Of a stretch of 64,000 nucleotides of DNA, positions 1,788 to 58,504 are shown one piece after another. This DNA is from Quercus robur (lineage: Eukaryota; Streptophyta; Magnoliopsida; Fagales; Fagaceae), in contig NC_065545.1 in the NCBI RefSeq assembly GCF_932294415.1, positions 42,880,327-42,944,326 of the forward strand. Direction: 5' to 3'. Made by a program: the position numbers and the translations under genes. Numbering within the stretch: the stretch's first letter is position 1; each line of letters starts with the position of its first letter. The notes beneath the pieces are model-generated. The model did no database searches, had not been told where the DNA came from, and saw only the letters and a program-made list of their open reading frames with translations.

Positions 1788-4394
<2,607 letters not shown>

Positions 4395-6468
4395 GGAAAT
4401 TGAGACAAACGGGATGTTCCTTCCTTCCTCATCAAACCATCTTCTCAGGCTGTGAGCTTCTGGATAATTTGGCTCAATAAATAGTTGAGTGGTAGAGATG
4501 GTACCCAATGACTTCCCATTGAAGTCATTTACTCTACCTGTTTTCACAGCTAGAACAGGGAAAAGCCCTGAATCACACATATTTTGCAGACTCTGTCCTT
4601 CTGCATTGCAAAAGTTTCCCCACAGAGTTAATTCAACACTTCGGCCAGACATGTCCTTCAAGTGTAGGATTCTCCGCTGAGTTTCAGTACCATTTTTTCT
4701 CATTATTGAAGCAGAGGGACTGACAAAAGTTACAATACCAATAATGTCCATAATGCTGTTGTTGTCCATGCCTTCAATATCACTTATATGACGGAAGTGA
4801 AACTGCTGCTGTGGAATTGAGCTGTCGTCGTCAAAGCAAGGCTGTACTATTGACGTGCTCTCTAAGAAAATTTCCTGGTCATTTGGGAGGTGGTTATAAG
4901 CTTTTTGAGCAGGTCTTAAGCTTCCCTTGGAAATCAGATAAACCTTACCAACTTCAATCTGGTTGAAGAATTGATCAGCCACAGCATTAAAGCAAGTTAC
5001 CTGAATTTCTCCACCGTCAGAATCAAGAAGATAAAAACTGAATAGTTTACCATCACCGCGGGGATTATTGTAGTGCTTAAGTTCTCCTTTTGCTGTAACT
5101 CTAGCCTTAATTGTCCAATTCAGAGCAGCAATGGGAATTATCCTAGGGGGAGCTTCATTTCTAGCTATTGGTTCTCTGTTAGTGTACATTGAAGATGGTT
5201 GTTGATACACAGGCTGAGGTTGGTGGGAAGAGGTATTTAGAGGTGGTTGCGAAGCTTCTGATCTAGGGTTGCGGAAACTCTGCTCACCATATGAACCACC
5301 TAACGACACTGATCCAGGATATCCAGCACTAGACTCTGTCTTAGGGTAAGCAGCAGGCACATTTGGTGCAGCATATCTCCCTGAGTCAGGATTATTAGAA
5401 TAAGCATTGCCATATGATTGATTTATTTTAGGAGGCTCCATAGATGCTCCAGCTGCATTCGGTTTATTAACCAGACCACCAACAGGTGAACTTCCAGGAA
5501 ATGATTGGGGATTCCCAGTTCCTGTCCCTGGTTGGCCAGCTGGGGATTGTACAACCACAGGTTTTGCCACTGGTACAGGTTCTCCAATGAGATCACTTTT
5601 CTCAATTATCAAATCCAAATCAACAATGATAATAATCCTGCTTGCAGTCAAAAGAATCAACATGTCATCACCAAAATAATAATAGTCATGGAGCTGGGAA
5701 ATTGAATGTAAATAATAGATAATGTATAATGACACAGAAGAAAAACTCATTAAATTATTACGTTTTCATAGGTAAATACAACTCACACACCCTCAAGGCA
5801 TTAGACTAATTGCATTTCCCCTCCATGTTGTAGAGGTAGGAAATGTTATTTATTTATTTTTTTTATAACGTAGGAGAACTTCACTCAGATTAGTTGCACG
5901 TCATATAAAATATTGCACAACAATCCTCACTGTTAATCAAACTCTTTCGAACAATTGACCTTACCCGCTAGAATCAGTTATGAGGTAATTCAAGGACTTT
6001 TCAACCCTAACAAGTTGAGTAGTTTATCCTCGTGCCCAGGAGGCAGAGGTAGTAAATGTTATTTGGTCGAAAGACCATTTATTGCACAAAATAAGAACTT
6101 CCAAAATAGGAAACTTCTACTCATATAAGGAAAAGCATGTCTTACAACGAAAAAGACAAACGCAATCCACTTAAGATTGGACTGCTTACCATATACAGAG
6201 ATAAAGGCAATTACTAAATAACCCTGAACATGACCTTTCTAAATTTAGGCATAACTGAACAAGATACAGGATAACAAATTTGACCATGTCCCACCATAAC
6301 AACACTCTAATGAGGCAACTGTGGTGGGACATGGGACTTCAAAAACATACATTAATAATCTGGTGTCCCATCAACCAAATAGTGGAGGATTCTTTCATAA
6401 AATATAATAATTGTATGTAAAATAGAAGTAGAAGATTCACTGGGTGGGTGTAAAGAAATGTCAGAGAG

Positions 6469-16055: not shown

Positions 16056-17411
16056 ATGAAGAAAAAAATCAAAGCCGCAATTCTTGCATCAGTTGCATCT
16101 GTCCTCCTTGTGGGGGTTGCATTGTTAAAGAAATTACGACGTAGACGTAGAGATCTGCCTAGGGCGCCTTATGTTAACCATGCCGCCGAGAGAGAGGAAT
16201 ACATAAATAGTGTTTTGCATGGAAGTGAGAGACATTGTGTGAATCAACTTAGGATGAAGCCTATAGCTTTCCACCACTTATGTCACGCCCTCACTGAGGG
16301 GGAGCACGTACGTCCGACTGTTCACATGTCTGTTACGGAGCAAGTGTTCATTTTCTTGCACATTATTGGTCATAATGTGAGGTTTCGTGTAATGGGTGGT
16401 CGGATCTATAGATCAACTGAGACTGTTCATAGATACTTCAAAGTTGTCCTTAGGGGGGTCCTGAAATTATATAGAGCTCTAATAAGACTGCGTAGCGAAG
16501 ATACACCTCCAGAGATAAGGAATAGCAGAAGGTTTTACCCATATTTTAAGGTAAATATTGTGACTTGTGTGTTTTTGTAAATTGTGAAAATTTATGTAAT
16601 TTTAAACCATTATGTTTGTCAAAAATTAGGATTGTGTTGGAGCAATAGATGGTACACATGTTCGTGCATCTGTGCCACCTGAAATACAAGGAAGATTTCG
16701 TGGTCGCAAAGATGGAACCACGCAAAATGTGTTAGCTGCCATTAGTTTCGACTTAAAGTTCACTTATGTGTTGGCTGGATGGGAAGGCAGTGCACATGAT
16801 TCACGTGTATTAAATGATGCATTTGCTAGGCCAGGGGGATTTTCAATTCCCAATGGTATTACACGATTACTTCACCCTTTTGGTTTGTTAGTTTAATAAA
16901 TATTATGTGTTTTCCTAAACATAGTAGTGATTTGGTTTTTTTTTTAATATATGTAGGTAAATTTTATCTTGGTGATGCTGGGTATGGTAATAAAAATGGA
17001 ATATTGTCACCGTATCGGAGTGTACGATATCACTTGAAAGAGTTTAGTGATCGTCCTCCTGAGAATGCGCAAGAATTGTTCAATCTCCGACACTCTTCAT
17101 TGAGAACTACCATTGAGCGAGGGTTTGGAGTGGTGAAAAAACGTTTTCGAGTGTTGGATGCAGAACCATATTGGTCTTTCTCAACCCAAGTGAAAGTAGT
17201 GTTAGCGTGTTGTGTGGTTCATAATCACATTATGGGGGTTGAACCAAATGACCATATTATGGAAGATGCAATGAACCAAGTAGAGCTTAGTGACCACCAA
17301 GAAGAAACACAGTCTCGTCGGGAGTCCGTCGAAGATAGTAGATCATGGAATGCTAAGAGAGATGAGATATATCAAGCCATGTGGTCTGATTATATCAGGA
17401 GTGGAGAGTAG
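16056..17411 (+). CDS. PIF/Harbinger transposase (HARBI1-like DDE nuclease)
   Basis: Three exons are supported: 16056-16550, 16630-16855 and 16957-17411. GT/AG introns of 79 and 101 bp keep the frame (495, 226 and 455 bp; 391 aa). The enzyme cuts and re-inserts the element with a 3-bp TWA target. The DDE triad is visible: Asp in VGAIDGTHV (start of exon 2), Asp in YLGDAGYGN (exon 3), and Glu in RTTIERGFGVVKKRF. The N-terminal half has the helix-rich region typical of the family (PIAFHHLCHAL, VFIFLHIIGHN). An oddity is a hydrophobic stretch at residues 8-24 before an Arg/Lys-rich segment, which looks membrane-like but is probably not used so. The gene is followed 275 bp later by the Myb-like gene on the same strand, as in other Harbinger elements. 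No stop or frameshift was seen. Confidence 0.92.
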
Positions 17412-17686
17412 TACTTTATTTAGATTTTTATGATTGTAATGTGTTTTTTCTTTTTGTTTTTTTTTAAAGACAATGTATGTAATATAGACTTTTGGTGATG
17501 TAATGAAAAAGTATTTTTAGCATTACATTGTTATTTGATGGTATTACATTGTCATTTCCATAGTTAGCATGTTCCGTTCTATTGTGCACATTCATAAGCG
17601 TGGTTGTATGTGTGTTTGATTTGTTATTCATGTTCCGAGTGTAATTACTGAATGCTACTCTCACTATACTATTTTCGTATGTAGTA

Positions 17687-18718
17687 ATGTCAAAGGGTAA
17701 GGAAAAAGTTAGCGGCAGCAAGCAATTTAGGTGGCTGCCACCTATGCATGAGATGATGCTAAAGATATTAACAGAGGAGGCTGGAAAGGGCAATAAGCCC
17801 TCTAATACTTTTAGGGCCGGCTCCTTTGCTCTTGTAGCGAAGGAGATAACGGCCCATTTCGGGGTTGAGTGCCACCCTGTATTTGTGGAGAACCGGATGC
17901 GGACTCTAAGGTCCATGTGGGCAACTATTCAAGAGCTTAGAAAGAAGAGTGGATTCGGTTGGGACGAAAATCTGAAAATGATAATGTGTGACGCTAAAAC
18001 CTACCAAGAAGAAGTTATGGTATGGCTTCTAACTATATTTTCTTAATATAGATAATAATATATGTTTTTGCATGTTATATGAAATTTATAGTGTCATTGT
18101 TATTGCAAAGTCTTTTATATTGAATTTATGAGTGAAGTTATTATTGCATTATTATATACGTTCTTTTCTCCCTTATAGGCACATCGGAAGCATGCCGAGT
18201 ATCTGAACAAAAAAATTGAGTTTTACGATGAATTAGCGATTGTGGTGGGGAAGGATACAGCCACAGGTGCCTTTGCTAAGTCTGGAGTGGATATCGAAAA
18301 TGAGGCAGATAATGGGGATAATGGGGATAGTGCAGAGTTTGTGGCAGATAATGTGGATGAATGTGTGGTTGAAAAGGGGAAGAACGTAAATGAATCATCC
18401 ACCACTGGGTCGGGAATTTCCAAGTCCCGCAAAAGAGGGCGTGCAGCTTCTACTGCTGATGATAGTGTGCTGACTGATCTGTCTGGTCAGCTGAAGGAAA
18501 TAGCTGTCGCTCTAAAAGAAATTAATCGGGGCCCGGTAGATTACACAACTTTGTATAATGAGGTAATGGCTATGATGGCGGATGGATATAGCGAAGATAT
18601 GCTCGCTACTGCCTTCGACCATCTTTGTGAGAATGAGAAGACGGCACGTGGATTTTTAGCAAAGAATGCTAGGTTGAGGAAGTTGTGGTTAGATGGTTAT
18701 TTTTTCTCACAAATTTGA
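17687..18718 (+). CDS. Harbinger Myb/SANT-like DNA-binding protein (ORF2)
   Basis: Two exons, 17687-18019 and 18179-18718, join in phase to give about 290 aa. The N-terminal part (RWLPPMHEMMLKILTEEAG, then FVENRMRTLRSMWATIQELR and a following GFGWDE) is the Myb/SANT-like trihelix domain found in plant transposon-associated proteins. An acidic low-complexity linker (NDNGD/EFVADN) and a basic SRKRGR stretch, a possible nuclear signal, follow. A C-terminal helical domain (LSGQLKEIAVALKEI to LRKLWLDG) ends the protein. In PIF/Harbinger elements the second protein helps the transposase enter the nucleus and bind the subterminal repeats; that role is from the family, not seen directly. The reading frame is intact. 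Confidence 0.9.
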
Positions 18719-22184: not shown

Positions 22185-22349
22185 ATGAAGAAGCGAACGA
22201 AAGCTGATGAAGATGAAGAGAAGCTGGAGCTAATAGAAGATTCACATATTAAAAGTAGAACAAGTGCGGACACTACTCCTCAAACGACATCATCATCGTC
22301 TGAGGATTCAAGTTCCGATGGAACAACCTCCACGTCAGATGATGATGAT

Positions 22350-22523
22350 TGTTAATGTATATTATATTATATTATGGGCTTTAGGCCCAATTACCTTTCT
22401 TGTATAGCACACTTGTACTTGTACTACACTTTACTTGTACCGCACATTAACGCCTCCTATATAAGGCTCTGATGTATATTCTCTCATTATGAAATACAAT
22501 ACAATCTTCCAGTATTTCTAACA
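22350..22523 (+). repeat. 5' LTR of the Ale Copia element
   Basis: 174 bp, TG...CA ends. It contains a TATA-like CTATATAAGG near 22459 and AATACAATAC near the end, giving the element promoter. It supplies the stop codon that ends the interrupted CDC48C exon. Confidence 0.95.
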
Positions 22524-22535
22524 TGGTATCAGAGC
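22524..22535 (+). other. Primer binding site (initiator tRNA-Met)
   Basis: TGGTATCAGAGC directly follows the 5' LTR. This is the standard Copia primer site complementary to the 3' end of initiator methionine tRNA. Confidence 0.9.
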
Positions 22536-23174
22536 CAGGTTCTCTGACCTTTTCTTAGCAGTCTTTTCTGTATTGGTGTTACTCCACTCTCAACATCGCT
22601 TCCGCTATCACAACAGTCGCCGCAGCCTCTCGCCATTGAAACTCCGACGTCTTCCAGCCGTCGTCCTTGGGTTCCGGACCTGCAGCCGCTGTCGTTGAGT
22701 AGTCCAACACTGCACAGAACACTGCACGTGTCATCGCCGCCACGAATATTGCTCCGATCAAATTTCTGGAGATATCATTGTGTTCGTCTTGAACCGATCT
22801 ACCCTGCGGTGAAAGCCTCGCAGTAATTAGATACTGCACGCGCTGTCATGTGTGGCTTGATTTTTCTGCGTCAGAGACCCACGCGCCACACGCGTCGTCA
22901 TCAGTTCTAGCTGACGTCACTTGTGACGTCATCAGTGCCACGTCAGCATCCACTCATCTGCTGACGTCAGCGCCACGTCATCCTGTGACGTCATCTGCTG
23001 ACCGTTGACCGTTGACTGAACGTTGACCGACCGTTGACCGTTGACTTTGATCGGACGTTGACTTTGACCGTTGACTTTCTCTTTAGGGTTGACTTTTGCA
23101 GTCCAGGTTCTCCTTACCCAGTTTTTCGCGTAGATTTCATTTTTGCATTCTGTTTTTGCATATTGTGTCTCTAA

Positions 23175-26100
23175 ATGGATAAAAAGGATGTTTTTCTTCC
23201 TCGCCCCATCAATACTGTATTGGAGGGGAACAAGAATTACTTATCTTGGTCTCAAGCTATGCGCAGTTTTCTTAAGGGTCGTATGCTCTGGCATTACTGT
23301 ACTGGTGCAGTCGCCATTCCTGTCAAAGGAGCAAGTGAAGAAGATACTGCCTTTCTTGGTCGTATGATTGAATGGGATAGTCATAACCACATGATCCTCA
23401 CATGAATTCAGAACACTTCCATTCCCTTCATTTCCAACCTGTTGGGCAGCTATGATGATGCCAAGTCAGCGTGGGATACGTTGGCCAAAAGGTACTCCAC
23501 TACTCATGGCTCCATGAAATATCAGTTAGTGGTTGAATTGCATCAACTCAGACAAGAACCAGGGCAATCCATCAATGACTACTATGATCAGCTTCGCTTC
23601 ATTTGGGACCAAATTGACCTTTCTGATCCAACTTGGGCATGCTCAAAGGATGCTCAACAATATGCTTCCATCAGAGATGAATTTTGCCTCTATGAATTCC
23701 TGATGTCCCTTCACAAGGACTTTGAGCCCATTCGAGGCCAGCTGCTAAATCGCAGTCCTGCTCCCTCTCTTGATACTGCTGTGAATGAGTTGGTTAGAGA
23801 AGAAGCTCGTCTTGCAACCCTTCAAGCTCAGAATAAGCTCAATGTTTTGGCTATTACACCTTCTGCTCCACCCATAGAGCAACCTCAACAATCAGGTGAT
23901 TCCTCTGGCTCTAGCAATCGTCGCAAGCAGACCAACAAAAAGTTCTGCAACTATTGCAAACGTCCTAACCACACCATTGAGACTTGTTATCGTCGCAACA
24001 AATCTACTGCTGCCGTTGCTAATACTTAGCCTACTCCGCCGATGGCTTCCATTTCAGCTGAGTCCCAGTCTTCTGGATCCACTATCAACCTCTCTCCCAC
24101 TGAACTACAGGAGATCATAGCTCAAGCTGTTCGTATGGTTGGTAATGCATCTCTTTTCACTGCTCTCTCAGTTCTGCCCGGTAAGTCTCAAACTTGGCTC
24201 TTTGACTCTGCCTGTTGCAATCACATGACACCTTACTCCTCCTTATTCTCCAAACTTGACCCTACACCACACCCTCTAAATATTCATATAGCTGATGGTT
24301 CCACCATGCATGGGAATAGTCTAGGTTTTGTTTCAACCTCCAACCTCTCTGTTCCTGGAGTCTTCCATGTACCTGACCTATCCTATAATTTGTGCTCTGT
24401 GGGACAATTAGCTGAACTAGGTTATCGCCTTATTTTTGACTATTCTGGGTGTATTGTGCAGGATTCGAGGACAGGACAAGAGCTTGGGACCGGCCCTAGA
24501 GTTGGGCGTATGTTTCCCGTGGACAATCTTCATCTTCCACCTATTGCTCCTGTTTCTGTTGCTACTGCAGCTGCTACAGTTTCTTGCTTACCATCTCTTG
24601 CACTTTGGCATTCTCGTCTTGGTCATGCATCATCTTCTCGGGTACAACAGTTAGCTTCTAGGGGTCTATTGGGTTCTGTGTCCAAAGACAATTTTGATTG
24701 TACTTCATGTTAGTTAGGAAAACAACCAGTTTTGTCTTTTAATAACAGTGAATCCATTTCCAATAGTATTTTTGAGTTAATTCATTCTGATGTTTGGGGA
24801 CCTTTTACTATTGCTAGTATTGGTGGATCTCGATATTTTGTTGTCTTTAATGATGATTATTCTCGTTATAGTTGTATATTTCCTATGAAATCTCGTTCTG
24901 AAATTTTACCAATATACAGCAACTTTGCAAAAATGGTTGAAACCCAATTCTCCAAACGTATCAAAACTTTTCGTTTTGATAATGCTCTTGAATATACTCA
25001 ATATGCATTTCAAGCTTTGTTACATTCCTATGGCACTGTGCATCATCTAACTTGTCCAGGTACCTCTCAGCAAAATGGTCGAGCCAAAAGAAAACTTCGA
25101 CATATTCTTGACACTGTTCGTACTCTTCTTCTTTCTGCCAAAGTTCCTGCCCCATTTTGGGGTGAAGCTGCTCTTAATGCTGTTCATGCGATTAATCGCA
25201 TTCTAAGTGCTGTCATCCATAATCAGACTCCATATGAGCGTCTCTTTGGGTCACCTCCTGATTATCATCACCTTCGATCCTTTGGATCTGCTTGTTTCAT
25301 TCTTCTTCAGCCTCATGAACACAACAAACTTGAGCCTCGATCTAGACTTTGTTGTTTCCTTGGTTATGGCGAAACTCAAAAAGGGTACAGGTGTTATGAT
25401 CCTGTCTCTCATCGTCTTCGTGTTTCTCGTAATGTTGTCTTTTGGGAACATCGATTGTTTGTTGAACTCTCTCACTTTCGTTCTTCCCTAACTACCTCCT
25501 CTGTTTTAGAAATTTTTCCAGATGAGTCTCTTGTTCCTTCTACAAATACTTTTGATCCTCCTTTAGACCCTTCTCCAGATATTTTTGATACTACTCCTAG
25601 ATAGGTTGAAGATGAACAGGTTGATGACGAGCTACCCCACCTAGAGCCTAGGTCCCCTGCTCCTGCTCCGCCTGAAGATCCTCCACAAGACATTCCACAT
25701 CACCACTCAACCCGGGTAAGATCCATTCCTACACATTTACTTGACTATCATTGTTACACTGCCCTTGCTACACTTCATGAGCCTCAAACCTATCGTGAGG
25801 CCTCCACTGACCCTTTATGGCAGATTGTAATGAAAGAGGAACTTGATGCATTAACCAAAAACCATACCTGGGATCTGGTCACTCTCCCTCCTGGACAGTC
25901 TGTGGTTGGTTGTAAGTGGATCTATAAGATCAAGACTCGCTCTGATGGGTCCATTGAGCGCTACAAGGCTCGTCTTGTTGCAAAAGATTTTACACAGGAG
26001 TATGGGATTGATTATGAAGAGACCTTTACTCCAGTTGCTCGTATCTCATCTGTTCGTGCCCTCTTAGCTATTGCTGCTGCTAGTAAATGGGATCTTTTTC

Positions 26101-27302
26101 AGATGGATGTGAAAAATGCTTTCCTTAATGGGGATTTGAGTGAAGCAGTCTATATGCAACCTCCTCCTGGTCTCTCTGTTGACTCAAACAAGGTTTGTCA
26201 TCTTCGACGTGCACTTTATGGTCTTAAACAAGCTCCACGAGCTTGGTTTGCCAAGTTTAGCTCCACTATCTTTCGCTTGGGTTACACTGCCAGTCCGTAT
26301 GATTCTGGCTTATTTCTTCGTCGTACTGATAAAGGCACCATTTTGCTTCTATATGTGGATGATATGATCATAACTGGTGATGACCTCAGTGGCATTCAAG
26401 AACTCAAGGATTTTCTTAGTCAGCAATTTGAGATGAAAGATCTTGGACATCTCAATTATTTCTTAGGTCTTGAAATTACTCATTCCACAGATGGTCTTTA
26501 TATTACTCAAGCCAAGTATGCTTCTGACCTTTTATCTCGAGCTGGACTCATTGACAGCAAGACTGTTGACACTCCGGTTGAACTTAATGCGCATTTGACA
26601 CCCTCGGGGGGGAAACCATTGTCTAATCCTTTTCTTTACAGACGATTAGTTGGCAGCCTAGTTTATCTCACAGTTACTCGTCCAGACATCTCCTATGCTG
26701 TTCATCAGGTGAGCCAGTATCTGTCTGCTCCACAATCTACTCACTATGCTGCTGTTCTGCGCATTCTTCGATACCTGAAGGGCACTCTCTTCCATGGCCT
26801 TTTCTACTCAGCTCAGTCTCCTCTTGTACTTCGTGCATTTTCTAATGCTGATTGGGCAGGGGATCCCACTGATCGTAGGTCCACTACAGGTTATTGCTTT
26901 CTCCTTGGTTCTTCTATAATTTCTTGGCGAAGTAAGAAACAAACCTTTGTGGCCCACTCCAGTACTGAAGTAGAATATCGTGCCCCTGCTGATACCACAT
27001 CTAAGCTCCTTTGGCTACGATGGCTTCTTAAGGATTTAGGTGTGTCCACATCCTCTGCTACTCCCCTTTATTGTGACAACCAGAGTGCCATTCATATTGC
27101 TCACAATGATGTCTTTCATGAACGGACTAAACACATCGAGATTGATTGTCATTTTATCCGTTATCATCTTGTCCATGGTGCTCTCAAGCTCTTTTCCGTC
27201 TCCTCCAAAGATCAACTTGCAGATATCTTCACCAAGTCACTTCCTAAGGGACGCACTCGTGATTTGGTTGACAACCTCAAGCTGGTCTCACATCCACCTT
27301 GA
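23175..27302 (+). pseudogene. Ale Copia Gag-Pol polyprotein with four in-frame stops
   Basis: One frame runs from ATG 23175 to the end at 27302 without any frameshift but with stops at 23403 (TGA), 24027 (TAG), 24711 (TAG) and 25602 (TAG). Gag (UBN2-type, SWSQAMRSFLKGRMLW; AKRYSTTHGSMKYQ) ends in a CCHC knuckle, CNYCKRPNHTIETC. Protease has WLFDSACCNHMTP. Integrase has HSDVWGPF, FNDDYSRYSCIF and GTSQQNGRAKRK. RT shows ARLVAKDFTQEYGIDYEETF, YGLKQAPRAW and LYVDDMIITGDD. RNase H shows NADWAGDPTDRRSTTGYC and CDNQSAIHIAHN. All four stops can be explained by C-to-T or G-to-A changes. The element cannot make a full polyprotein itself and was probably moved by a relative. Confidence 0.93.
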
Positions 27303-27306
27303 GTTT

Positions 27307-27314
27307 GAGGGGGG
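27307..27314 (+). other. Polypurine tract
   Basis: GAGGGGGG one base before the 3' LTR, the plus-strand primer of the Ale element. Confidence 0.8.
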
Positions 27315-27315
27315 C

Positions 27316-27489
27316 TGTTAATGTATATTATATTATATTATGGGCTTTAGGCCCAATTACCTTTCTTGTATAGCACACTTGTACTTGTACTACACTTTAC
27401 TTGTACCGCACACTAACGCCTCCTATATAAGGCTCTGATGTATATTCTCTCATTATGAAATACAATACAATCTTCCAGTATTTCTAACA
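27316..27489 (+). repeat. 3' LTR of the Ale Copia element
   Basis: 174 bp, identical to the 5' LTR except for one base. It could provide a promoter reading into the remaining CDC48C exon 1, where an in-frame ATG lies at 27507. Confidence 0.95.
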
Positions 27490-28178
27490 ATGATAATGAG
27501 TTTCACATGTCAGAAGATGATGATGTTGATACTAGCAAGGCTGAGAATAAGATTGAACAAATGGGTAGTGATAATGCTAATGGGGAGAGAGTGAAAGTGG
27601 AAGTGGATGCTCAAGCTCAAGTTCAAGCTCAAGCTCATTCTCAAGCTCAAGCTCAACCTCAGAAGAATGGTAATGGTCATGGTAATGGGGAGAGGGGAAT
27701 AATGGGGCCGAGGTTTAAGGATTTTGGAGGGATAGATAGTGTAATTGAAGAGTTAAAAATGGAGGTGATTGTGCCATTGTACCATAGAGAGTTACCGAGG
27801 TGCCTTGGAGTCCAACCCATATCCGGGATTTTGTTGCACGGGCCACCCGGTTGTGGCAAGACCAAATTGGCTCATGCCATTGCCAACGAGACCGGGTTTC
27901 CATTTCATATGATTAGCTCTACTGGGATCATCTCTGCTGTCTCTGGTATGCATTTCCTTTTTATCATTATTATTATTTCTTTTTTAAAAAAAAAAAAAAA
28001 AAACACTCTAGCCTGGTAATTAAATCTTATGGGCAATCACTCCACCACTAGTTGTCGAGTAATTGAGGGGCATTCACCCCTAATGGGATAAATAGTTTAT
28101 GCTCATTCCCAAGATCAATTATTATCATTTTATAAGATAAGAGTTCAATAATTGTTAAATTTCCTAAAGGGATATATA

Positions 28179-28428: not shown

Positions 28429-29392
28429 TAAGGTCATGGATTTGAAAGCTATGATCTCGGGGCCACCTTGAAGGGATTCCTTCTTGTACTTACTCGGTAT
28501 GTGTATGAAGTAACATCTACTAAATATTCAAGTGCTTGAAAAACTTTGGAACACCCTAAGAGTGTACACCTTTGATTAATAGGGTGGTAAGGAATTTGTG
28601 AGTAAGGGGACTTAAAGCCTGCTTTGGATTCTACCAGTATCGTTCATCAATTTAATTTTTAGGGAAGTGATTCTTGTTAGATGCAGATTTTTCAATTTAA
28701 AGACATGAATAGGTTCATTATCTCGGGCCTCGGCATTCAAAAATGATTAATTTTTCCTAGTTTTTGGCATAATTTCTCATTTTTATCCCCCTCTTCTTGC
28801 ATTGGGCTTAATTGTTTGAGAAGCAGCTACTTTTTTTTTTCCTAAAAATTAGAAGTCCTATAGTTGTTTCTCATTTGATGGATATTTCAGGTGCAGCAGA
28901 GGAAAATATTCATCAGCTTTTCTCTAGAGCATACAACATTGCACCGTCAATTTTATTTATTGATGAAATTGATGCAATTGGTTCTAAAAGAGAAAATCTA
29001 AGAGATATGGAGCGACGAATTGTGACACAGTCGATAACTTGCATGGATGTACTTCAGAGACTATACCAGGCACATGCTAAGTCAAACTCAGAAAGTTCTA
29101 ATACGAAACCTGGCTATGTGCTTGTAATTGGAGCTACCAATAGGCCTGATGCCCTTGACCCTGCACTAAGGATGCTTGGACGATTTGACCGTGAGATTGC
29201 TATAGGTGTTCCAGATGAAACTGGAAGGCTTGAGATTCTTTCTGTACTTACACGCAATCTTAAATTGGAGGGTTCTTTCAATATTCTCAATCTAGCAAGG
29301 TCTACGCCTGGTTTTGTTGGGGCTGATTTGGCTGCCCTGGCTAACAAGGCTGGTAACCTTGCCATGAAGAGAATTATTGATGAAAGAAAGTC

Positions 29393-29790
29393 TGAGCTAT
29401 CTAAATATTCTTCTATAAATGAGGAGCATTCTGAAGAGTGATGGAGGCAACCATGGTTGCCTAAAGAGATGGAAAAGCTTGCCATCACAATGGCTGATTT
29501 CGAGGTGCTTTTGTCTTTCTATTTCCTTATCGTTTTGTATCTAATATGCTCTCATTTATTCACTTGCTTACATTTCTAGGTAAGTGAATTTTGAGCTATC
29601 TAAATATTCTTCTATAAATGAGGAGCATTCTGAAGAGTGATGGAGGCAACCATGGTTGCCTAAAGAGATGGAAAAGCTTGCCATCACAATGGCTGATTTC
29701 GAGGTGCTTTTGTCTTTCTATTTCCTTATCGTTTTGTATCTAATATGCTCTCATTTATTCACTTGCTTACATTTCTAGGTAAGTGAATTT
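29393..29790 (+). repeat. Perfect 199-bp tandem duplication over the exon 2/intron 2 boundary
   Basis: 29393-29591 and 29592-29790 appear identical. The unit includes the last 112 bp of CDC48C exon 2 (with its TGA stop), the GTGCTT donor and 87 bp of intron. Exon 2 thus has a second 3' end and donor. Because both copies carry the TGA, the stop predates the duplication. Identity over 199 bp points to a very recent event. Confidence 0.92.
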
Positions 29791-29841
29791 TGGTCAGGTG
29801 AATACAAATTTTATATTTTTTTATATATTCTATTTTCAGTA

Positions 29842-30309
29842 TGTTGATGTAGGCCATGTGGCTTGAATTGCCAAAGCCCAATTTGGTCTTCTAAATCAAA
29901 TACAAGTAGTATTAGGAAACCGAATACAACTAGGAATATAATTCCTAGTAATAGCTGACCTATAATATATATATATATATATATATTAGGTTTGGGTTGA
30001 AAAAAAAATACATAGAGAGAATTAGAGTAATTCCTAACCCTAGCAGCAACCACATAAGAAGAAGAATAGTGTTTTCTTGTCTTGTGGGTGAGAGAGAGCT
30101 AGGGTGTATTGGGAATTGGGTTTCTTGAGAGTATTCTTTTGCACTATTGTATCTCCCTAATTTTTATAGTGAAATTTCTCCGTCGTCTCCATGGAGGTAG
30201 GCAGTTTGCCGAACCACGTAAATTCTTGTATTCTTTGTGTGTACTTGTTATTTGATTTCTGCTTATTTACTGTTATTGATTTGAGTCCTGGGGTGCTATC
30301 TGCACAACA
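29842..30309 (+). repeat. 5' LTR of the Tork Copia element
   Basis: 468 bp with a TA run near 29967. A TGGTAGCAGAG (30312-30322) two bases later is a one-mismatch version of the initiator tRNA-Met primer site. Confidence 0.92.
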
Positions 30310-30342
30310 AGTGGTAGCAGAGTAAGGTTAGGATTCAATCCT

Positions 30343-32881
30343 TTGAATACAGTAAAGATGTCAAGCACAAAGTATGATGTAGAGAAGTTTTGTGGTAAGG
30401 GAAATTTTTCACTTTGGCAAAGGCGGATGAAGGATCTCCTAATTCAACAAGGAGTTCATAAGGCCTTGCTTGGGAAGGAGAAGAAACTGGAAACGATGAA
30501 GGATGTAGAATGGGTAGAGATAGATGAGAAAGCAGCTAGCGCTATTCGTCTTAATGTAGGTGATGAGGTCATTCACAACATCCTAGAAGCAAAGACCGCA
30601 AAGGAGGTTTGGGAAAAACTAGAAGGTCTTTATATGAGAAAGAATTTGACGAACAAGTTGTACGTGAAGAAGCAACTGTATAGTTTGCATATGAAGGAGG
30701 GTTCTGATCTGTTGGAGCATCTCAACATGTTTAACATTTTGAACATCCAACTGTCAAGTTTTGGGGTGAATTATGAGGACGAAGATAAAGCGTTACTCTT
30801 ATTAACGTCGCTTCCTATTTCTTTTGATCATCTAGTGACTACGTTGATGTACGGGAAATAGACTATAATACTCGAGGAGGTGACTAGTGCTCTCTTGTCA
30901 CATATAAAGATGAAGCAAGATGGTAATGGTTCTCAGGCTGATGGACTTATTGTAAAGTTTGAGTCAAGCAATAGAGGTAGAAGCGAGTCAAGAGGACGGA
31001 ACTCCAACAGGAACATATCACAGTCTAAATCACGTGCAAAGAAAGACGTAGAGTGCTTTTATTGTCACAAGAAATGGCACTATAAGAATCAGTGTAAAGA
31101 GTTGAAAGAGCATTTAAAGGAGAAGAAGAATGGAAAGAAGCCCCTAGAATCAGCTAGTGTTGCTGAAGAAATATCAGATGACAGTGAAGTTGGTGCAGAT
31201 TTACTTTCAGTCTCATCAAGTAACAATGTTTTATTGGAATCTTGGGTTTTAGATTCAGCATACTCATATCATATGACTCCAAAGAAAGATTGGTTTGACA
31301 CGTATAAGCCTTACCACAGTTATGGTCCAAATGGGTAATGATGCTACATGCCCAGTTATTGGGATTGGTACCATGAAGATCAAGATGTTTGATGGAGTTG
31401 TGAGAGTTCTTAGTAATGTCAGACATGTTCCAGATCTTAGAAAGAATTTAATTTCTTTAGGAGTGTTGGATGATTTGGGTTATTCATACTCATCAAAGGG
31501 TGGAATCATGAAGATTACCAAAGGTGCTTTGATGGTGATGAAGGGACAGAAAATAAGCACGCTTTACAGATTGATTGGGAACACAGTTGTAGGCAGAGTT
31601 GCAGTCACCACTCCGGTGGAGTCCAGCACTAACGACACAAAATTATGACATATGCGACTTGGCCATATTGGTGAACGTGGTATGTTAGAGTTGCACAAGA
31701 GAAATTTATTGAAAAGGGTGAAGACATGCAAGCTAGACTTCTACAAGTATTGTGTGTATGGGAAGCAACATAGAGTCAATTTTAAGATAGGCTCTCATAC
31801 AAGTAAGGGTGTTCTTGACTACATTCATTCAGATGTTTGGGGTTCAGTATCAGTTTCTTCTCATAGCGGTGCTCAGTATTTCGTCAGTTTCATTGATGAC
31901 TACTCTAGAAAGGTATGGATTTATTTTATGAAGCATAAGTCTGATGTGTTTGGCATATTTAAAAGGTGGAAAGCACAGGTTGAGAATCAGAGTGGCAGGA
32001 AAATAAAATATCTTAGAACAGATAATGGACTAGAGTATAGAGATAAAGAATTCATAAGATTTTGTGAATTAGAAGGCATTACTCGTCACTTCACAGTTAA
32101 AGGAACTCCACAACAGAATGGGGTTGCAGAGAGAATGAACAGAACCTTAGCAGAAAGAGCCAGATGCATGAGATTGAATGTAGGGTTGCCTAAGGTGTTC
32201 TGGGCAGAGACAGTTAACACAGCAAACTTCATTATTAATAGATCTCCATCTTTAGCCATTGATTTCAAGATTCCAAAAGAGGTTTGGTCAGGTAAACCAG
32301 TTGATTATTCGAGTCTAAAAATCTTTGGTTGTCCAGCTTATGTGCATGTGCAGAGTGGAGAGCGTTCTAAATTGGATTCGAAGTCAAGAAAATGTGTATT
32401 TCTTGGTTTTGAAAAAGGTGTTAAAGGCTACAGGCTTTGGGATCCAATCTCAAAGAAAACAGTGACCAGCAGAGATGTCATATTTGATGAAGCCTTTATG
32501 TTGAAACAGAATGAAGCAAAGACATGTGATGATAGTCCACAGGAGAAATTAACTGTTGAGGTGGAGCTTGACGAGAATAGTTCACCTAATGATAAGGGTG
32601 ATGTTGAGATTGATCCACAGCAGCAACAAGAAGAGTCTTATTCAATTGCTAAAGGTAGAGAGAAGTGGGTTCACAAAGCACCACAGAGATATGGCTTTGA
32701 AGACATGGTTAGCTTTGCTCTCATAACTAGTAGTGGAGATCCATTGTCTTACAGGGATGTAGAAGAGATGGGGTCACTACAGAAGAATAAGACTTGGGAA
32801 TCTTCTAGTATGTTGACAAAGTCAGTTCCAACAAATAAGTTCAAGAGCTACTTGGACTTGGTTGATGTTTGCAGCTTGTAA
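30343..32881 (+). pseudogene. Tork Copia Gag-protease-integrase remnant
   Basis: Gag begins near ATG 30358 (KYDVEKFCGKGNFSLWQRRM), as in Tnt1-like elements, and is interrupted by TAG at 30859. A CCHC knuckle (CFYCHKKWHYKNQC) lies near 31051-31092, with Trp where Gly is usual. Protease reads WVLDSAYSYHMTP near 31240. A frameshift between about 31310 and 31336 changes frame, and TGA at 31646 interrupts just before the integrase zinc region. Integrase follows (HSDVWGSVSV, FIDDYSRKVWIYFMKHK, RTDNGLEYRDKEF, GTPQQNGVAERMNRT). At about 32800 the sequence jumps from EMGSLQKNKTWE, which precedes RT in relatives, to MLTKSVPTNKFKSYLDLVDV, the usual C terminus. RT and RNase H are thus cleanly deleted. 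Confidence 0.9.
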
Positions 32882-32957
32882 GCCCTTATGGGCTAAGGTA
32901 GAGGCGATGGAGGAGTTTGCTCGTGTAGCTTGATCAATTCAAGCCAAGGTGGAGATT

Positions 32958-33429
32958 TGTTGATGTGGGCCGTGTGGTTTGAATTGCCAAAGCCGAATTT
33001 GGTCTTCTAAATCAAATACAAGTAGTATTAGGAAACCGAATACAACTAGGAATATAATTCCGAGTAATAGCCAACCTATAATATATATATATATATATAT
33101 ATTAGGTTTGGGTTGAAAAAAAAAAATACATAGAGAGAATTAGAGTAATTCCTAAAACCCTAACAGCAGCTGTATAAGAAGAAGAATAGTGTTTTCTTGT
33201 CTTGTGAGTGAGAGAGAGCTAGGGTGTATTGGGAATTGGGTTTCTTGAGAGTGTTTTTTTGCACTATTGTATCTCCCTAATTTTTATAGTGAAATTTCTC
33301 CATCGTCTCCGTGGAGGTAGGCAGTTTGCCGAACCACGTAAATTCTTGTGTTTTTTGTGTGTGCTTGTTATTTGATTTCCGCTTATTTACTGCTATTGAT
33401 TTGAGTCCTGGGGTGCTATCTGCACAACA
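32958..33429 (+). repeat. 3' LTR of the Tork Copia element
   Basis: 472 bp, matching 29842-30309 with about twenty differences. Purine-rich AAGGTGGAGA immediately before it is the likely polypurine tract. Confidence 0.92.
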
Positions 33430-35012
33430 CAGTACTTACCCATTATGAATCAATCCTGTCTCATCACTCTAATTTAAGTGTGAAAGTTGAAAATGTGGAG
33501 ATAACACTGTAGATATTTAGTTTTTTTTTTTATTTTTTTTATTTTTAGTGTTTTTAGCCACTGTCATACTGTATGTCTACCTTTTGGTGATCAAGACTGA
33601 CAATTTTGATTGTATTGAAGGCTTTTGCATTTTAGAAAATGTCAATACAATTCTGCTAGTTTGTTCTTGTTTAGTGATTTTCTTAAATGATGATGCAAAT
33701 TGCTATTATGTGGTGTTCTGCAGGAAGCAGTTAAAATGGTTCAACCATCATCAAGAAGAGAAGGATTCTCTACCATTCCTAATGTAAAATGGGAAGATAT
33801 CGGTGGGCTTGATTTCTTAAGAAAGGAGTTTGAGCGTTACATAGTTAGACGTATTAAACATCCAGAGGATTATGAGGTATTAACAATAATTGTTTTCTCA
33901 TTTATTATGCTGCGTGTGTGTATGTGTGTCTCACTTTGCAAGACTTCATTGGAAGTTTAAACAGAAAGCGTACGAGGGCTCTTCAAAGGAAGAACCTATA
34001 TCTGTAAATGATATATATGTACATACATATATGCATAGAGGGATGGATGGATGGAACGGTTGAGAAGTTTGAAAATATATGTTTCACTGACATGAAGGTA
34101 AATTTATCTTCTAGTTTGCTTCAACCAGTATTTCCCACTAAATTATGTTAGCTGAATTTCCTTGGGAAATTGTTGAGGTCTAGAGAATCAACTAGTCAAG
34201 AGATTAAAGCTAGGCAAGCAGCCCTGCTCCATTGCAGGAATCATGCCACTGGATATGCCTGGAGATTATCAAAATAGTATCTCCATAGTGATATTGAAGT
34301 TTTACTTTTGATATTTGGGTTAGGAATCGTAGAAGTATGTTAGAACAGGTGTTTCTTATTAGAAGAATTACCGGCAGGTCAATTCAGGCTGTTCATGATA
34401 AGGACTGTGTAGGATTCATTAAAATTTCCCATTTCCAGGTTAGCTTCACATTCGAGGGATGTCGTTCTATGAACGTCAATAGAGCTACAAATTTTATTTA
34501 GATAACGATGCCAACTAAGCTATCTTGTCTCTCATGTCAAGGTTCAAGGTTCCTTGGGCAAGGACATTCTATGTCTGAAGATGGCATAGTCAATGATGCG
34601 ACTGAAATCATGTTATAGGTAAGAAGAATGCTGTACACAGAGAGACTGCTAATTTAGTCTTTCACCCCCACTACACACGCACAGATCAAAATGCATATTG
34701 TAGTGGATTACTTTAGAAAGGCGAGGAATAATGGTGATATTTGCTGTCTATTCATCCTGTGCAATTAGTTTGCCAATCTGGAATTCCATTTTGACATAGT
34801 TTCTCCGGCAGGTTTACACTTCTTGATATGCTTGAGTTTCACTTGTAGCAAAGGAATCTTTATTTTTTCTGATTCTTGTGTTCTATTTCTTCTGATGGTA
34901 CCTTAATTAAATTTGGAGCCCTGCACTTCATTTATTAGAAACTTCTTTGAGTTCTTCTTGAAGGCGTAGAAGCCTAGAAGCTACATTCTAAATTGCTGAT
35001 CCCGCATCATGA

Positions 35013-35156
<144 letters not shown>

Positions 35157-35347
35157 TGATTTTCCCTTTCCATTCTGTCCGTGTATCTGCAATGTTTGAT
35201 ATATTTTCATAATGGTGTTTAGTACATTGGTATCGTGAGAATCAAGTTGCACTCTGTTAGAAAAATAAATGTACTCGTAATTGTATTTTTGTTTGATTTT
35301 GATTTCAAATACTTACTTGGATGGTCATGGTTTTTGCTGATGGTTAG

Positions 35348-35578
<231 letters not shown>

Positions 35579-37391
35579 TGACGGAGTTTTTTTTTCTTCT
35601 AGAATATGACTTCTTTTGATCTTTAACAATTCTTATGACTTACTGAGTAAATTCAATTATAAATTGGTAAATAAGGTTTTCTGGGCGGAGGAATGCGTTT
35701 TTCCCATTTTCAAGAACACATTAAATGCAAACTATCTTACCTTTTCCCTTTGCCAATATACTTTTTCTTTAGACTATCTTGTGCTTGTAATATGAGGTAG
35801 ATTTTTCGTAATGAAGTCATTTACTTATCCACCCCCTCCCCCCCACCCCAAAAAAAAAAAAAAGGTTTTAGACTAGTCCAGTGTCTAATTGACTCTCTTG
35901 TCTAATGGAATTCAAGAGTTAATGTGGATTGACTCTCGAACTAGTTTTTTGAACTGGTACTGTCTTCTTCAGCAATCAAGGCATTAAGATTCTCTCCTAG
36001 GAAAGCTTGAAATTTCAGTTTTACAACTGTTTTTTTGAAGCAGATAGTTAACAGTTATAAGAACCAACTTATGTTGTCACCACGAGATATCATCATACAA
36101 AAGTTTCAGAATAGTAAAAGACAACAAAGCAGAAACCAACAGAATTCTAAATTCCTCAGTTTAATAGAATGGCAAGTATGATGCATCTTCTTAATAAATT
36201 AAGTTGACCTTATAGGGTCTCTTTAGGCACTTGTTTAATATTAATACATGATATATGTTTGAAGCAAAAGCAAGTCAATTAGTGTATCATATTAGAGATG
36301 TATGCGGAATTGCCATTTAGTAATTGTTCATTTCTCCTTGTCATTTCACTAGGTTTTCTTTCATGATCATATAGATGAAATCTAATGGATTTGATGGGTA
36401 GGAGTTATGTTGTGGTCATTAATTTTTCTCTGCTTTTTTGAGATGGTTTTATCCCCCATGATTTGTAGGTGGACGCTTTGACAACAAATCGTGGTACAGA
36501 AGGGGGATGGATTGTTGAACGGCTACTGAACCAGGTCAAATAATCTCCAGAGGGAGCCTGAATAAAACCATGCTTCCCTACTTATTATGTTTTTTTGTTT
36601 ACCAATTTATATTCCATTATTGATGAAATATTCCCATTGCCTGCAATTGCAGTTACTTATAGAATTAGACGGTGCAGAGCAGCGGCGGGGAGTTTTTGTC
36701 ATTGGTGCAACAAACAGGTAAAACTCAACATTTTTTATTTTTACTTCAATTTGTTCTAATGACTATAACCTTATTGATACCTTCCTGTTGGCATCTCATT
36801 TGGCAGACCTGAGATGATGGACCGAGCCATCTTACGGCCTGGTAGGTTTGGTAAACTTCTTTACGTTCCTTTGCCCAGTCCGGATGAGCGTGGAAAGATC
36901 TTAAAAGCTCTTGCAAGGAAGAAGCCTATAGATGCCAGTGTGGATTTGAGTTCTATTGGGCGAATGGAGGCCTGTGAAAATTTTAGTGGAGCTGATCTTG
37001 GAGCACTGGTTTGTCTATACTGGAATACATGTGTGTGTGTGTGTAGGGGTTTCAGATGAATGAATTGTCTAAATTTCTACTATTGACAGATGAATGAAGC
37101 TGCAATGGTTGCTCTTGAAGACAGACTGAAATTAACTGAGAGCACTTTAGATGCAGCTTCTTTGACAATCAAATCAACACATTTTGAGAGAGCAGTAGGT
37201 CAAATCTCGCGTTCTGTGTTAGACAAGGTATGATTCATTCTGTTTTTTTTTTCTTATTTTGTCTAGTGCAAGGATACCTGAGACTTGATTATAAACCAAT
37301 TGATTTTTTTAAAAGCCTAACATCTCTTCTATTTGGCGAACAGCAAAAACAATACTACCAAATGTTGTCTGAGAACTTAAAGGCAGCATGA

Positions 37392-41182: not shown

Positions 41183-42325
41183 TATATATAAACTGGGACC
41201 AAATGGGATATTAATTCATTGTTTGTCTTAATTCGAATCAAACCAGTACCATTTACCTTTCAAGGAAGCTAGAAACTCTTCCCTGGATATGGAAGACTTC
41301 TTCAACTCTTTGCCAATTAGCTTCTCCCAAATCTCAACAACTTCTCTGAGATAAGATGTTTTTAGGTGGCCTCAGATATACCGTCTTGTTGAGAGCTCGA
41401 GGGTCGTCTATAGTTTTGATAGTGTACATTGCTATATCTTCTTCATCGACATAAATTCCTTATTCCTACCACATTAAAATATAAAACAAGAAATGTTTCA
41501 ATTCTTATAAAGGTAAATATAGAAAAGTGACTACATATAGAAAATCATCAAGTACTTTAAAAAACTGGTTAGCGTCATTATTTTAACTGGTAAACCTCTC
41601 TCTGTGGCCCACAAAATGGCTTACAGATTTTTTCTTAATTATAAAATTAATTATTACTTTTGTGCTTTCAAAGTGCAATAAAATGAATCTACTTTTGCAG
41701 TCTGTAAAAGGAAAGATTAAGGTTATCATGGAAACACCTTTTTTATTGCCATCTCCCAACAAGGTCACTGAATCCCTTGAAGGAAGGATCTTACAAGGCT
41801 CGCACAGACCACCAAGAAAATAACCAGCAAAACAGTTTGCGGAAATATATGTGAAAGGTATCCGAGCTTCTTCTATAGCTTTCCTCACCACCATTTTGTC
41901 ATCAAATGTTATTCTTCCAGGTTCTAATGCATTCTCCATTCTAGCAGGATCGGTGCCAAACTCAGATGGCAAAAATCTCTACCAATATATATATAATAAC
42001 TTGTCATGTATGAGTAACAAAACTATAACCCTAGTAAAGAATGCATTAATTATATTGTTGTATTTAAGGATACAGTCCCATATAAAGACAATTGTTAATA
42101 AATCTAGGTGACTGTCTAGATTTTTTCATTGAAACATGATATTTCGATATCAACATAATTTGCAGTGTATCAGTTTCATAAATTTTATGGAACATTTCAT
42201 CCGTTTTGACCATAACAGAACCAACTTATCTATATATATATATATATATAAAACCGAAACTTTTGAAGTTCCCACAATTTTCCACGTCAGCACAATATTA
42301 AAACTTTTTAAGACTAAAAAAAAAA

Positions 42326-42809: not shown

Positions 42810-43567
42810 TGTAAGGACACAAAATCTGTAACAGCCCAGCAACGATGTTGGGCTCGTACACGGAAAGTCCCTCACAATAATATTTGTAGAGAGTGGGGTT
42901 AAAAAGCCAGCATTGGATCACAGGATGGCATTTTTGGGCCGGACTTTAGATGAACCAACATGAGATAAAGCCTTGGGCTGGATATTCAGGCCCTTCGATC
43001 TTGCATTGAGGAGGATCTGGCTCCTCGGATACTGTCCGAGGAGCGGTGGTGTTGTCCCCGATTGCCCGTCGGCGGGTTTTTTAGGTGATGTCCGGCGTAT
43101 ATTCTCCAGACATTCTCTTTCATCAAGTTCTTTTTCGGGAGCTCCCTGGGAGTCCCTTTCTTGGTCACATAACATTTTCTTTTATACTAGCCTACGTTCG
43201 TCGTCCTTCGTCCACGTGTAGGGTCGATCTTTCCAGGGCAGATATCTGTCCCATCAGTCTAATCCCTGAATTATGGGAGATGGTCCATAAAGCCTAAAAA
43301 TCCGGCTCTGTCCGGGGCGATGTCATGTCAATGAAGGATATTTAAAGACTATTTCCGTGAGATATTTTCTGATCTTTCAAGTCTGCCTGTATCCCATTCT
43401 TGTCAATGGGGTTCTGGGCTTTCCGAGGACTGAGCGGTCCTTGGACGTACCTTTGAACCACACCGGGCTCACTATTTTTGGGCTTGGGCCCTGGCCTCCT
43501 TTAGTTTGGTGACCTGTGGACTCCCCATAAGCGAGCGAGCCGGGCCCATAGACCATTGGGCCCCACA
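42810..43567 (-). repeat. 3' LTR of the LARD-like element
   Basis: 758 bp, about 99 percent identical to the right LTR. Differences include CAGCAACG/CAGCGACG near the left end and TCCTTGGAC/TCCTCGGAC near the right end. Confidence 0.92.
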
Positions 43568-45060
43568 ATAGCCCCTCAAAACCCTGCTGTCCAACGTCTT
43601 GGTTGGAAAGGTGGGTTTTGGTAATACCGAGTCTTAACTGCGGCTCATTTAATTCGGCCCTTGATCAACGTTGGTGACTCTTCACCTCCACGAGGAATGC
43701 GCCGGTCTACGAGCCGTTTTTCCTGGATTTACGTTCGTTGCCGTTATGCCGCGTGGTTATCTGCAACGTGCCTTTAATCTCTTACCATTTACGAGATCTT
43801 CCAGATGCAACGGTTACTGATGGTGTGGGAGAACGAAACGGCGCGTCATACTCTGGATTTCCCTGGGGATTTGAATGTGTCACATACCCTCTTCTTCGTC
43901 CCCTATATAAAGAGAGAAGACAGAGGGTGACCCTTTCATATCCGAATCCCTCACGTTCTTCCCAGAATCCACCTCCTCCATCCGGTTACTCCTTACTCCA
44001 TAACACTTATCTCATAGCAAGCCACCATGAACAAACCCTTCCTTTCCCAGAAACGCCATGTCCCAACAAAACTCGAGATGGCTCGGTCGGGGCAAGGGTG
44101 GTGGAGGCTTAAGATTTGCCTCCCCATTCTTTTAGCCAAAATCCGAAGTAAGGACTCGTTGCACCCCATTCCTGGGGTGCCTGAGTCGAAAACCTCCCTT
44201 GTCATCTCCATCTGCTCTCTCATGAGCATACCTAATAAGGCTCCCCTTCTCCCTCTTTTGCTCCTTTTACTTTCTTTTCATTGCTTCCCTCTTCTTCTCC
44301 TCCTTCCCGCTCATGTCCTCCATCTTCTTTTTCCCTTGCATTCTTCAGTGACAAGAGCTTGCTGAAGTGCTTCCATGTCTTCCAATTCGTCTTCCTTCTC
44401 CTTCATTATTTTTGTATAAGGATCTTCTCCTGATATGAGCAGTACTGAGGCATAGAGTTCAGAAAGACTTTGAAGGCGAACTCAGAAGACACCTGATGGT
44501 TTATTTATTTATGTTACGGATGTTGTTACTGTTCTAGCAGTTCATTTTTTGTATAGGCTTGTTTTAGCCCCTCCTTGTACGTTGTAACAATTTTTCATAT
44601 TAATAAAAGTTACTGTTACTCTATTTCGTATGTATTGTTTATATATTTTTAACAAATGTGAAAGCGCTGCTCGGCATAATAGTATAGCATTTCAATCAAT
44701 AATAAATAAGACCAAAGTACTCGTTGATAAAAAGATGCCACGATGACTTTAGCAAAATTATTATTCAACATAACAATCCGACCAGTGAGGAATGAGACTT
44801 ATCTTAAAATTAGCCGTGATGGGTATGAAATGCTTCGATAAGATGTAAGAAGTAGCTATCCGAGGACGTGTTACCCACCGGATGAATGGCCTCTTTAGGT
44901 TGACGATCATTAGGTTGTCCTGCCACTTTCATGATACGTGAGACTTAACCCTTTCCAGAATTTAAGCCGAAAAATTCCTTCATTAGGGCAGTTGATTTCC
45001 CAAGAAGCCTGAGTCCGAGGACTTTGCAAAACCTGGGCTTTGTTCAGGACTTATACGTTT
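43568..45060 (-). other. LARD internal region, 3' unique part
   Basis: No domain of a retrotransposon protein was recognised on either strand. CGCCATGTC...AAAATCCGAAG (44054-44150) has a diverged second copy at 46108-46235, so the inside was partly duplicated. A TATATAAAGAGAG near 43911 and AATAAAAG near 44600 look like transcription signals on the plus strand, opposite to the element. Confidence 0.5.
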
Positions 45061-45063
45061 TAT

Positions 45064-45672
45064 CTTATGTACTTGATTCTTCCCTCAGGCTTGAGTCCGA
45101 GACTTGTGTCTTTGTCGGTACTTGGTTTTCCCTTTTAGCTTGAGTCCGAGGACCACGCAAGCCTCAGGTTCTGTCCAAGACTAATGTCTGTATCAGTACT
45201 TGGTTTTCCCTTTTAACTTGAGTCCGAGGACCATGCAAGCCTTAGGTTATGTCCAAGACTAATGTCTGTATCAGTACTTGGTTTTCCCTTTTAACTTGAG
45301 TCCGAGGACCATGCAAGCCTTAGGTTCTGTCCAAGACCAATGTCTGCATCAGTACTTGGTTTTCCCTTTTAGCTTGAGTCCGAGGACCATGCAAGCCTTA
45401 GGTTCTGTCCAAGACCAATGTCTGCATCAGTACTTGGTTTTCCCTTTTAACTTGAGTCCGAGGACCATGCAAGCCTTAGGTTCTGTCCAAGACCAATGTC
45501 TACATCAGTACTTGGTTTTCCCTTTTAGCTTGAGTCCGAGGACCATGCAAGCCTTAGGTTCTGTCCAAGACCAATGTCTGCATCAGTACTTGGTTTTCCC
45601 TTTTAACTTGAGTCCGAGGACCATGCAAGCCTTAGGTTCTGTCCAAGACCAATGTCTGCATCAGTACTTAGT
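45064..45672. repeat. 78-bp tandem array in the LARD element
   Basis: Seven regular 78-bp units (starts of TGAGTCCGAGG near 45141, 45219, 45297, 45375, 45453, 45531 and 45609) plus two decayed ones to the left. The core is TTGAGTCCGAGGACCATGCA. The unit is related to that of the larger array at 46898-48315. Confidence 0.9.
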
Positions 45673-48315: not shown

Positions 48316-48557
48316 GGCGTCTTTTCTCTATATTGATTTATCTTTCGAAGGTCAGCCCCTAGGCCAGGGAGGGAGGAGCAGGTTCGAGGCCGCAAGCCCC
48401 TAGAGCTGTCCGCTCCGTTGGCAGTGTAAGGCGTAGCCCCCAGCAGAGGCTTATGGCGGAGCAGTAACTGTACGTCACCGAAGATGGGAAAAACTCGTGA
48501 ATCTCCGGTTACTGGAGAGCTGACTCATGCACCACCCGTGCCAACGCGCAAGCCTCT
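48316..48557 (-). other. LARD leader next to the 5' LTR
   Basis: GC-rich unique sequence between the tandem array and the primer site. It corresponds to the untranslated leader of the element; packaging signals would be expected here but cannot be seen directly. Confidence 0.45.
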
Positions 48558-48573
48558 CCCACAGACGGCGCCA
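48558..48573 (-). other. Primer binding site of the LARD element
   Basis: TGGCGCCGTCTGTGG on the minus strand, two bases after the 5' LTR. The first nine bases fit the 3' end of plant tRNA-Asp; the rest fits less well, so the tRNA is an inference. Confidence 0.7.
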
Positions 48574-48575
48574 AT

Positions 48576-50540: not shown

Positions 50541-50550
50541 CTTTTTATAG
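50541..50550 (-). promoter_or_regulatory. TATA box of the PLR1 pseudogene
   Basis: CTATAAAAAG on the minus strand, 55 bp upstream of the ATG at 50486. The same sequence and spacing occur in front of the intact PLR2 gene, so the promoter was duplicated with the gene. Confidence 0.7.
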
Positions 50551-58490: not shown

Positions 58491-58504
58491 CAAATGTTTG
58501 TCAT

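Follow-up and report, generated by a model that had tools for sequence, protein, structure and literature searches.

A Copia retrotransposon splits exon 1 in a gene of the CDC48C/NVL type, at a site that the evidence supports resolving to the base. We believe this is very probably an exonic insertion in a tandem NVL/CDC48C-like copy that is decaying, and one of several lesions there, because the same copy also has a nonsense codon between its two AAA domains (D1 and D2) and changes in its catalytic motifs. In our opinion the case is that of an ordinary decaying duplicate and not of a single clean knockout.

The scenario we propose is simple. A Ty1/Copia-type element would have integrated by the usual reverse transcription and a 5-bp staggered cut. 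Its target would have been a GAT-rich stretch of exon 1, coding for a linker, in a tandem NVL/CDC48C-like gene copy of what the gene and element content suggest is a plant genome. The insert cuts the host reading frame short after 56 residues. The copy itself, which has kept its introns, would be a non-processed pseudogene or nearly one. The insertion would then be one of a number of disabling events, and it would imply no particular function. We infer that this copy has lost its function and is under no present constraint. Its decay would be recent or incomplete, because the 10-exon model otherwise keeps its frame and splice signals and has a single internal stop.

The locus is a well-resolved case of a young Copia in a coding exon, and it carries a caution. 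Exon 1 alone suggests that a single empty-site allele would rescue the gene, and a full read adds further lesions. Its use as a presence/absence marker or as a natural CDC48C knockout hinges on whether an intact copy exists elsewhere.

Table 1. Features of the locus. Positions are those of the window, the whole 64-kb stretch of DNA that was analysed.
Feature	Position	Strand	Remarks
Truncated tandem paralogue	1786-4394	+	homologous to 33756-36287
Host exon 1, 5' part	22185-22349	+	55 codons, acidic/Ser-rich
Target-site duplication ATGAT, left copy	22345-22349	+	
5' LTR, element 1	22350-22523	+	174 bp, TG...CA
Primer-binding site TGGTATCAGAGCC	22524-22536	+	first base after 5' LTR
Leader segment, element 1	22912-23094	+	4 TGACGTCA and 9 TTGAC[CT] motifs
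gag-pol frame, element 1	23175-27302	+	domain searches on 5 pieces, each apart
Polypurine tract TTTGAGGGGGGC	27304-27315	+	abuts 3' LTR
3' LTR, element 1	27316-27489	+	174 bp; TATATAA at 27424
Target-site duplication ATGAT, right copy	27490-27494	+	
Host exon 1, 3' part	27495-27945	+	D1 Walker A GPPGCGKT; GT donor follows
Host exon 2	28891-29504	+	remainder of D1, lid; GT donor at 29505
Exact tandem duplication, period 199 bp	29393-29792	+	29393-29593 = 29592-29792
Copia element 2	29842-33429	+	intron after exon 2; duplication CAGTA
Host exons 3-10, D2 half	33724-37391	+	all open, GT/AG introns

The insertion in exon 1

Element 1 spans 22350-27489 on the plus strand, 5,140 bp in all, and lies entirely inside host exon 1. 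Its two LTRs are identical at 173 of 174 positions (99.4%, one mismatch), each starting with TGTTAA and finishing with CTAACA. The ATGAT duplication is 5 bp long and directly abuts the element at each end, and no longer match is found there. The primer-binding site is one that we take to be of the initiator tRNA-Met type. Five pieces of the gag-pol frame, searched singly, give the domain order gag, Pol_BBD, gag_pre-integrase, rve, SH3 and RVT_2. The rve domain falls within 24714-25601 and RVT_2 (PF07727) within 25605-27299, so integrase comes before reverse transcriptase. Near-identical TG...CA LTRs, a 5-bp duplication, a primer-binding site with a polypurine tract, and the order integrase to reverse transcriptase together identify a Ty1/Copia element. 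Chance is not a serious option as the origin of this structure, because a direct repeat of 174 bp is 99.4% identical, the duplication, primer-binding site and polypurine tract meet their bounds to the base, and gag, integrase and reverse transcriptase lie between. The reverse transcriptase piece was also compared with viral contigs; five pattern stretches matched, with no relative among them.

The gag-pol region forms a single frame in which four in-frame stops precede the terminal one. Because of these stops the copy does not look autonomous. Its membership in Copia is unaffected.

The initial annotation had described ATGAT on both sides of a 5140-bp Copia element, and our coordinates, LTRs, duplication, primer-binding site, polypurine tract and domains all agree with that description. 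It had also held that the interrupted exon ends one codon inside the LTR. This is exact, as the occupied frame from the ATG at 22185 runs through 55 codons and one Cys to a TAA at 22353-22355. The further claim, that removing the element together with one ATGAT rejoins the frame without loss, holds for exon 1 and fails beyond it. When the flanks are joined with ATGAT counted once, exon 1 is open through 27945, where a GT donor follows. Past that point the gene has a stop at codon 389, motif changes, a duplication and a second Copia. An allele with an empty site would make exon 1 whole again, yet it would not give back the protein if it has the other changes as well.

The host gene and its other lesions

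The gene is best compared with NVL (PDB 9bji), with which it shares a double-AAA ATPase architecture of D1 followed by D2. Among solved structures NVL is the top match both for the stretch of exon 1 that follows the element, which encodes the N-terminal part of D1 (E 4.7e-33), and for the D2 half (E 1.2e-132). Exon 2, encoding the C-terminal part of D1, places NVL fourth with 211.8 bits against 214.3-216.1 for three VCP-like chains, so that NVL trails there by 2.5-4.3 bits. Judged on these matches, the name CDC48C appears apt in the sense of NVL-type. We scanned for the NVL N-terminal domain in 9 of the 12 plus-strand ORFs between 20264 and 22352 (Pfam, E<=1), and the only matches were DUF4170 (0.15) and SR-25 (0.96); the plant domain may escape a Pfam model or may lie in an exon farther upstream. 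The open-access literature that we searched yielded no paper on CDC48C and a retrotransposon, or on CDC48C and NVL in plants.

Our own gene model was derived from the sequence and has 10 exons ending at 37391 and 708 codons. Its introns have GT/AG borders, its frame is kept throughout, and it contains two stops, the terminal one and a TGA at codon 389. A processed pseudogene is ruled out by the introns. The gene departs from NVL (PDB 9bji) at the stop that separates D1 from D2 and at the D2 Walker A, where Glu takes the place of Lys. A functional NVL/CDC48C would have a continuous frame and a Walker A Lys in both domains; in this copy the TGA breaks the frame and the D2 Lys is replaced.

The internal stop is the TGA at 29439-29441 in exon 2, at a codon that was presumably once Trp. 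The exact tandem duplication repeats the end of exon 2 including this TGA, with the second TGA at 29638. Its presence in both copies makes it probable, we believe, that the stop is older than the 199-bp duplication. Given the position of the stop, a product with the N-terminal region and D1 is possible where the element is absent.

Three conserved motifs are also changed. The D2 Walker A reads GPPGCGET, with a Glu codon at 35088 replacing the Lys that is found in NVL (GPPGCGKT), in a VCP-like chain (GPPGVGKT) and in the upstream paralogue. DPELLN, from the codon at 35348-35350, replaces the GPELLN of NVL and of the paralogue. In D1, LRMLGRFD stands against LRR.GRFD in NVL and the VCP-like chains, a Met for an Arg at a position that, by p97, we take to be one arginine of the finger pair.

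A second Copia lies in the intron after exon 2. Its LTRs differ by 22 substitutions in 468 aligned sites, which makes it the older of the two elements. Scans of two of its four listed ORFs gave gag and integrase-region domains and no reverse transcriptase. There is no space for a reverse transcriptase after the integrase, because only 76 bp are left between the end of the last listed ORF and the 3' LTR.

The upstream paralogue is cut on both sides and matches the host gene at 94.3, 89.4 and 93.5% in three pieces. A Copia frame bearing reverse transcriptase ends at 1449, some 340 bp upstream of it. The paralogue has substitutions of its own beside the D2 Walker B (ILLSDE versus ILFFDE). Over 33761-35452, with 5 bases at the paralogue breakpoint and gap columns left out, the differences between the copies number 6 in 338 exon sites and 57 in 1354 intron sites (Fisher p 0.036). 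Because the exons have diverged less than the introns, we see a weak sign that some constraint acted after the duplication. By our reading four of the six exon differences alter the protein, in or beside conserved motifs.

Age of the insertion and order of the lesions

The single LTR difference in 174 sites gives a point estimate of 0.2-0.4 My for the insertion of element 1, with dating rates of 1.3e-8 or 7e-9 substitutions per site per year. The 95% limits are about 0.006 to 2.3 My, the upper one being about 1.2-2.3 My depending on the rate used. We consider the element fairly young. The stops in its gag-pol frame bear on its own history. At the LTR point estimate 0.35-0.45 nonsense changes would be expected after insertion and four are seen (P 0.0005-0.0012), while at the upper confidence bound of the LTR divergence the same four have P 0.13-0.23. 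We favour the view that the parent copy would already have been stop-bearing and was mobilised in trans.

The order of events in the host gene can be argued in more than one way. We give roughly even chances to the idea that the gene was already a pseudogene, with the nonsense codon and the Walker A changes coming first, and that element 1 landed in neutral DNA. The three changed motifs and the stop argue for this, as do the older intronic Copia and a paralogue that is likewise decayed. However, an intronic Copia is not necessarily disabling, and the lower divergence of exons than of introns between the paralogues hints at earlier constraint. That same weak sign can be turned around to argue that element 1 was by itself what disabled a CDC48C copy that otherwise still worked, with the remaining changes coming later. 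The rest of the gene has a single internal stop, and the one LTR difference allows about 1.2-2.3 My at its upper 95% limit, both of which fit this idea. We nevertheless find it somewhat doubtful. A nonsense codon and three motif hits (D1 R to M, D2 K to E and D2 G to D) are a lot for one lineage to accumulate in 0.2-0.4 My, and a stop that is in both copies of the exact 199-bp duplication is probably older than that duplication. It could also be proposed that either the insertion or the stop arose in the assembly. The ends of element 1 are biologically exact and both repeats of the tandem duplication have the TGA, so we regard an artefact as exceedingly improbable. Whichever of these orders is correct, we prefer to read the insertion as one lesion among several in a decaying copy.

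A possible transcript from the 3' LTR

The initial annotation had pointed out that the 3' LTR faces an in-frame ATG at 27507, and had suggested that the LTR could drive a shorter transcript. The ATG is indeed there, in frame with the remainder of exon 1 and with C at -3, and another in-frame ATG follows at 27561. A short LTR-driven protein is formally possible, then, and we disfavour it. The ATG at 27490, within the right ATGAT and with A at -3, comes first and in a better context, and it opens a 34-codon out-of-frame ORF that overlaps 27507. It shares its +1 frame with an ATG at 27496 (also A at -3), both lying ahead of 27507 and running to a stop at 27592. Two more ATGs follow the TATATAA of the LTR, at 27438 (6 codons) and 27455 (10 codons), and the latter may contribute an upstream ORF.

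By our count on the gene model, the product from 27507 would be a D1-only AAA fragment of 329 residues ending at the TGA at 29439, with fewer residues from 27561. The TATATAA and the two in-frame ATGs could serve such a product, and D1 has its AAA matches with Walker A and B intact. The out-of-frame ATGs argue against it. A stop ahead of downstream exon junctions marks a message for nonsense-mediated decay, and with its TGA followed by such junctions this transcript would be a candidate. We rate the LTR-driven fragment as highly unlikely. The more elaborate proposal, in which the 3' LTR of a stress-responsive Copia, its leader dense in WRKY- and bZIP-type motifs, would drive this D1-only fragment and the fragment would poison or tune hexamers of an intact CDC48C made elsewhere, has in our opinion next to no chance of being right. 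A promoter and terminator scan of the 3' LTR was set aside since its consensus is bacterial and unsuited to a plant LTR; it returned one promoter-like site (27526-27553) and one terminator-like stem (27341-27355), and neither was used.

Comparison with other Copia elements

Tomato TARE1 is described as an autonomous Copia of the Ale lineage, with 194-bp LTRs starting with TA (PMC3701649). Element 1 resembles it in being a Copia with short LTRs (174 bp against 194 bp) and a recent insertion. It differs in that its LTRs begin with TG and its gag-pol frame has four in-frame stops (PMC3701649).

The leader of element 1, from primer-binding site to gag, covers 22524-23174 (651 bp). It contains two kinds of short motif, TTGAC[CT] and TGACGTCA. 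All nine TTGAC[CT] motifs of the leader are on the plus strand within 23005-23094, and all four copies of TGACGTCA in the 64-kb window are located in the leader. In 1000 dinucleotide shuffles of this leader neither count was reached, and these counts are non-independent as the motifs belong in part to short tandem repeats. The window as a whole shows no enrichment of TTGAC[CT], with 84 sites against 84.2 expected; TGACGTCA is enriched there, with 4 sites against an expectation of 0.39 and 0 of 100 shuffles reaching that number. We take the two to be WRKY- and bZIP-type sites, respectively. A review describes W-boxes in the LTR of ATCOPIA93/EVADE that are said to be bound by WRKY factors (PMC12786077). 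The two elements are alike in being Copia elements with TTGAC[CT] motifs, and they differ in placement, the W-boxes lying in the LTR of ATCOPIA93/EVADE and the candidate sites of element 1 in the leader, 3' of its 5' LTR (PMC12786077).

Leader and coding frame of the Copia element

The leader of Copia element 1, the LTR retrotransposon inside exon 1 of the CDC48C-like gene, carries four copies of TGACGTCA between 22912 and 23094, and these are the only copies in the 64-kb window. The same leader holds nine matches to TTGAC[CT] within 90 bp. Neither count was reached in any of 1000 shuffles of the leader. We predict from these motifs that the transcribed leader, and not the LTR, may be the site of a stress-responsive enhancer.

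The gag-pol frame of this element (23175-27302) contains four in-frame stops, and its two LTRs differ at a single base. Taken together these observations suggest that the element was mobilised in trans by proteins from elsewhere, but so short an LTR does not allow certainty.

Other features of the window

Table. Further features in the window
Feature	Position	Strand	Basis or remark
Copia RT-bearing frame	1-1449		upstream of the 5'-truncated CDC48C paralogue
Replication protein A-type OB domains (REPA_OB_2, tRNA_anti-codon)	4389-5765	-	domain matches
DDE_Tnp_4 transposase piece, then Myb/SANT-like piece	16830-18043		domain matches
NmrA-domain pieces (four)	41586-41978, 50133-50600, 55721-56158, 58082-58546	-	domain matches
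Additional LTR element	42810-49333		LTRs ~760 bp
Near-perfect inverted repeat	60214-60537		151 bp, 22-bp loop, 97%

About 340 bp of further sequence lies between the Copia RT-bearing frame and the start of the truncated paralogue at 1786, and inspection of the joint at 1785/1786 revealed no clear CA end or duplication. The OB-domain region immediately adjoins the paralogue's right end.

The LTRs of the additional element differ at 7 of 761 compared positions, by our reading ATGGT flanks it at either end, and 78-bp and 84-bp minisatellites occur in its interior. The transposase and Myb/SANT-like pair is reminiscent of a PIF/Harbinger-type DNA transposon. The inverted repeat is MITE-like or microRNA-precursor-like. 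The NmrA-domain pieces likely represent at least two tandem genes, presumably resembling phenylcoumaran benzylic ether or isoflavone reductases.
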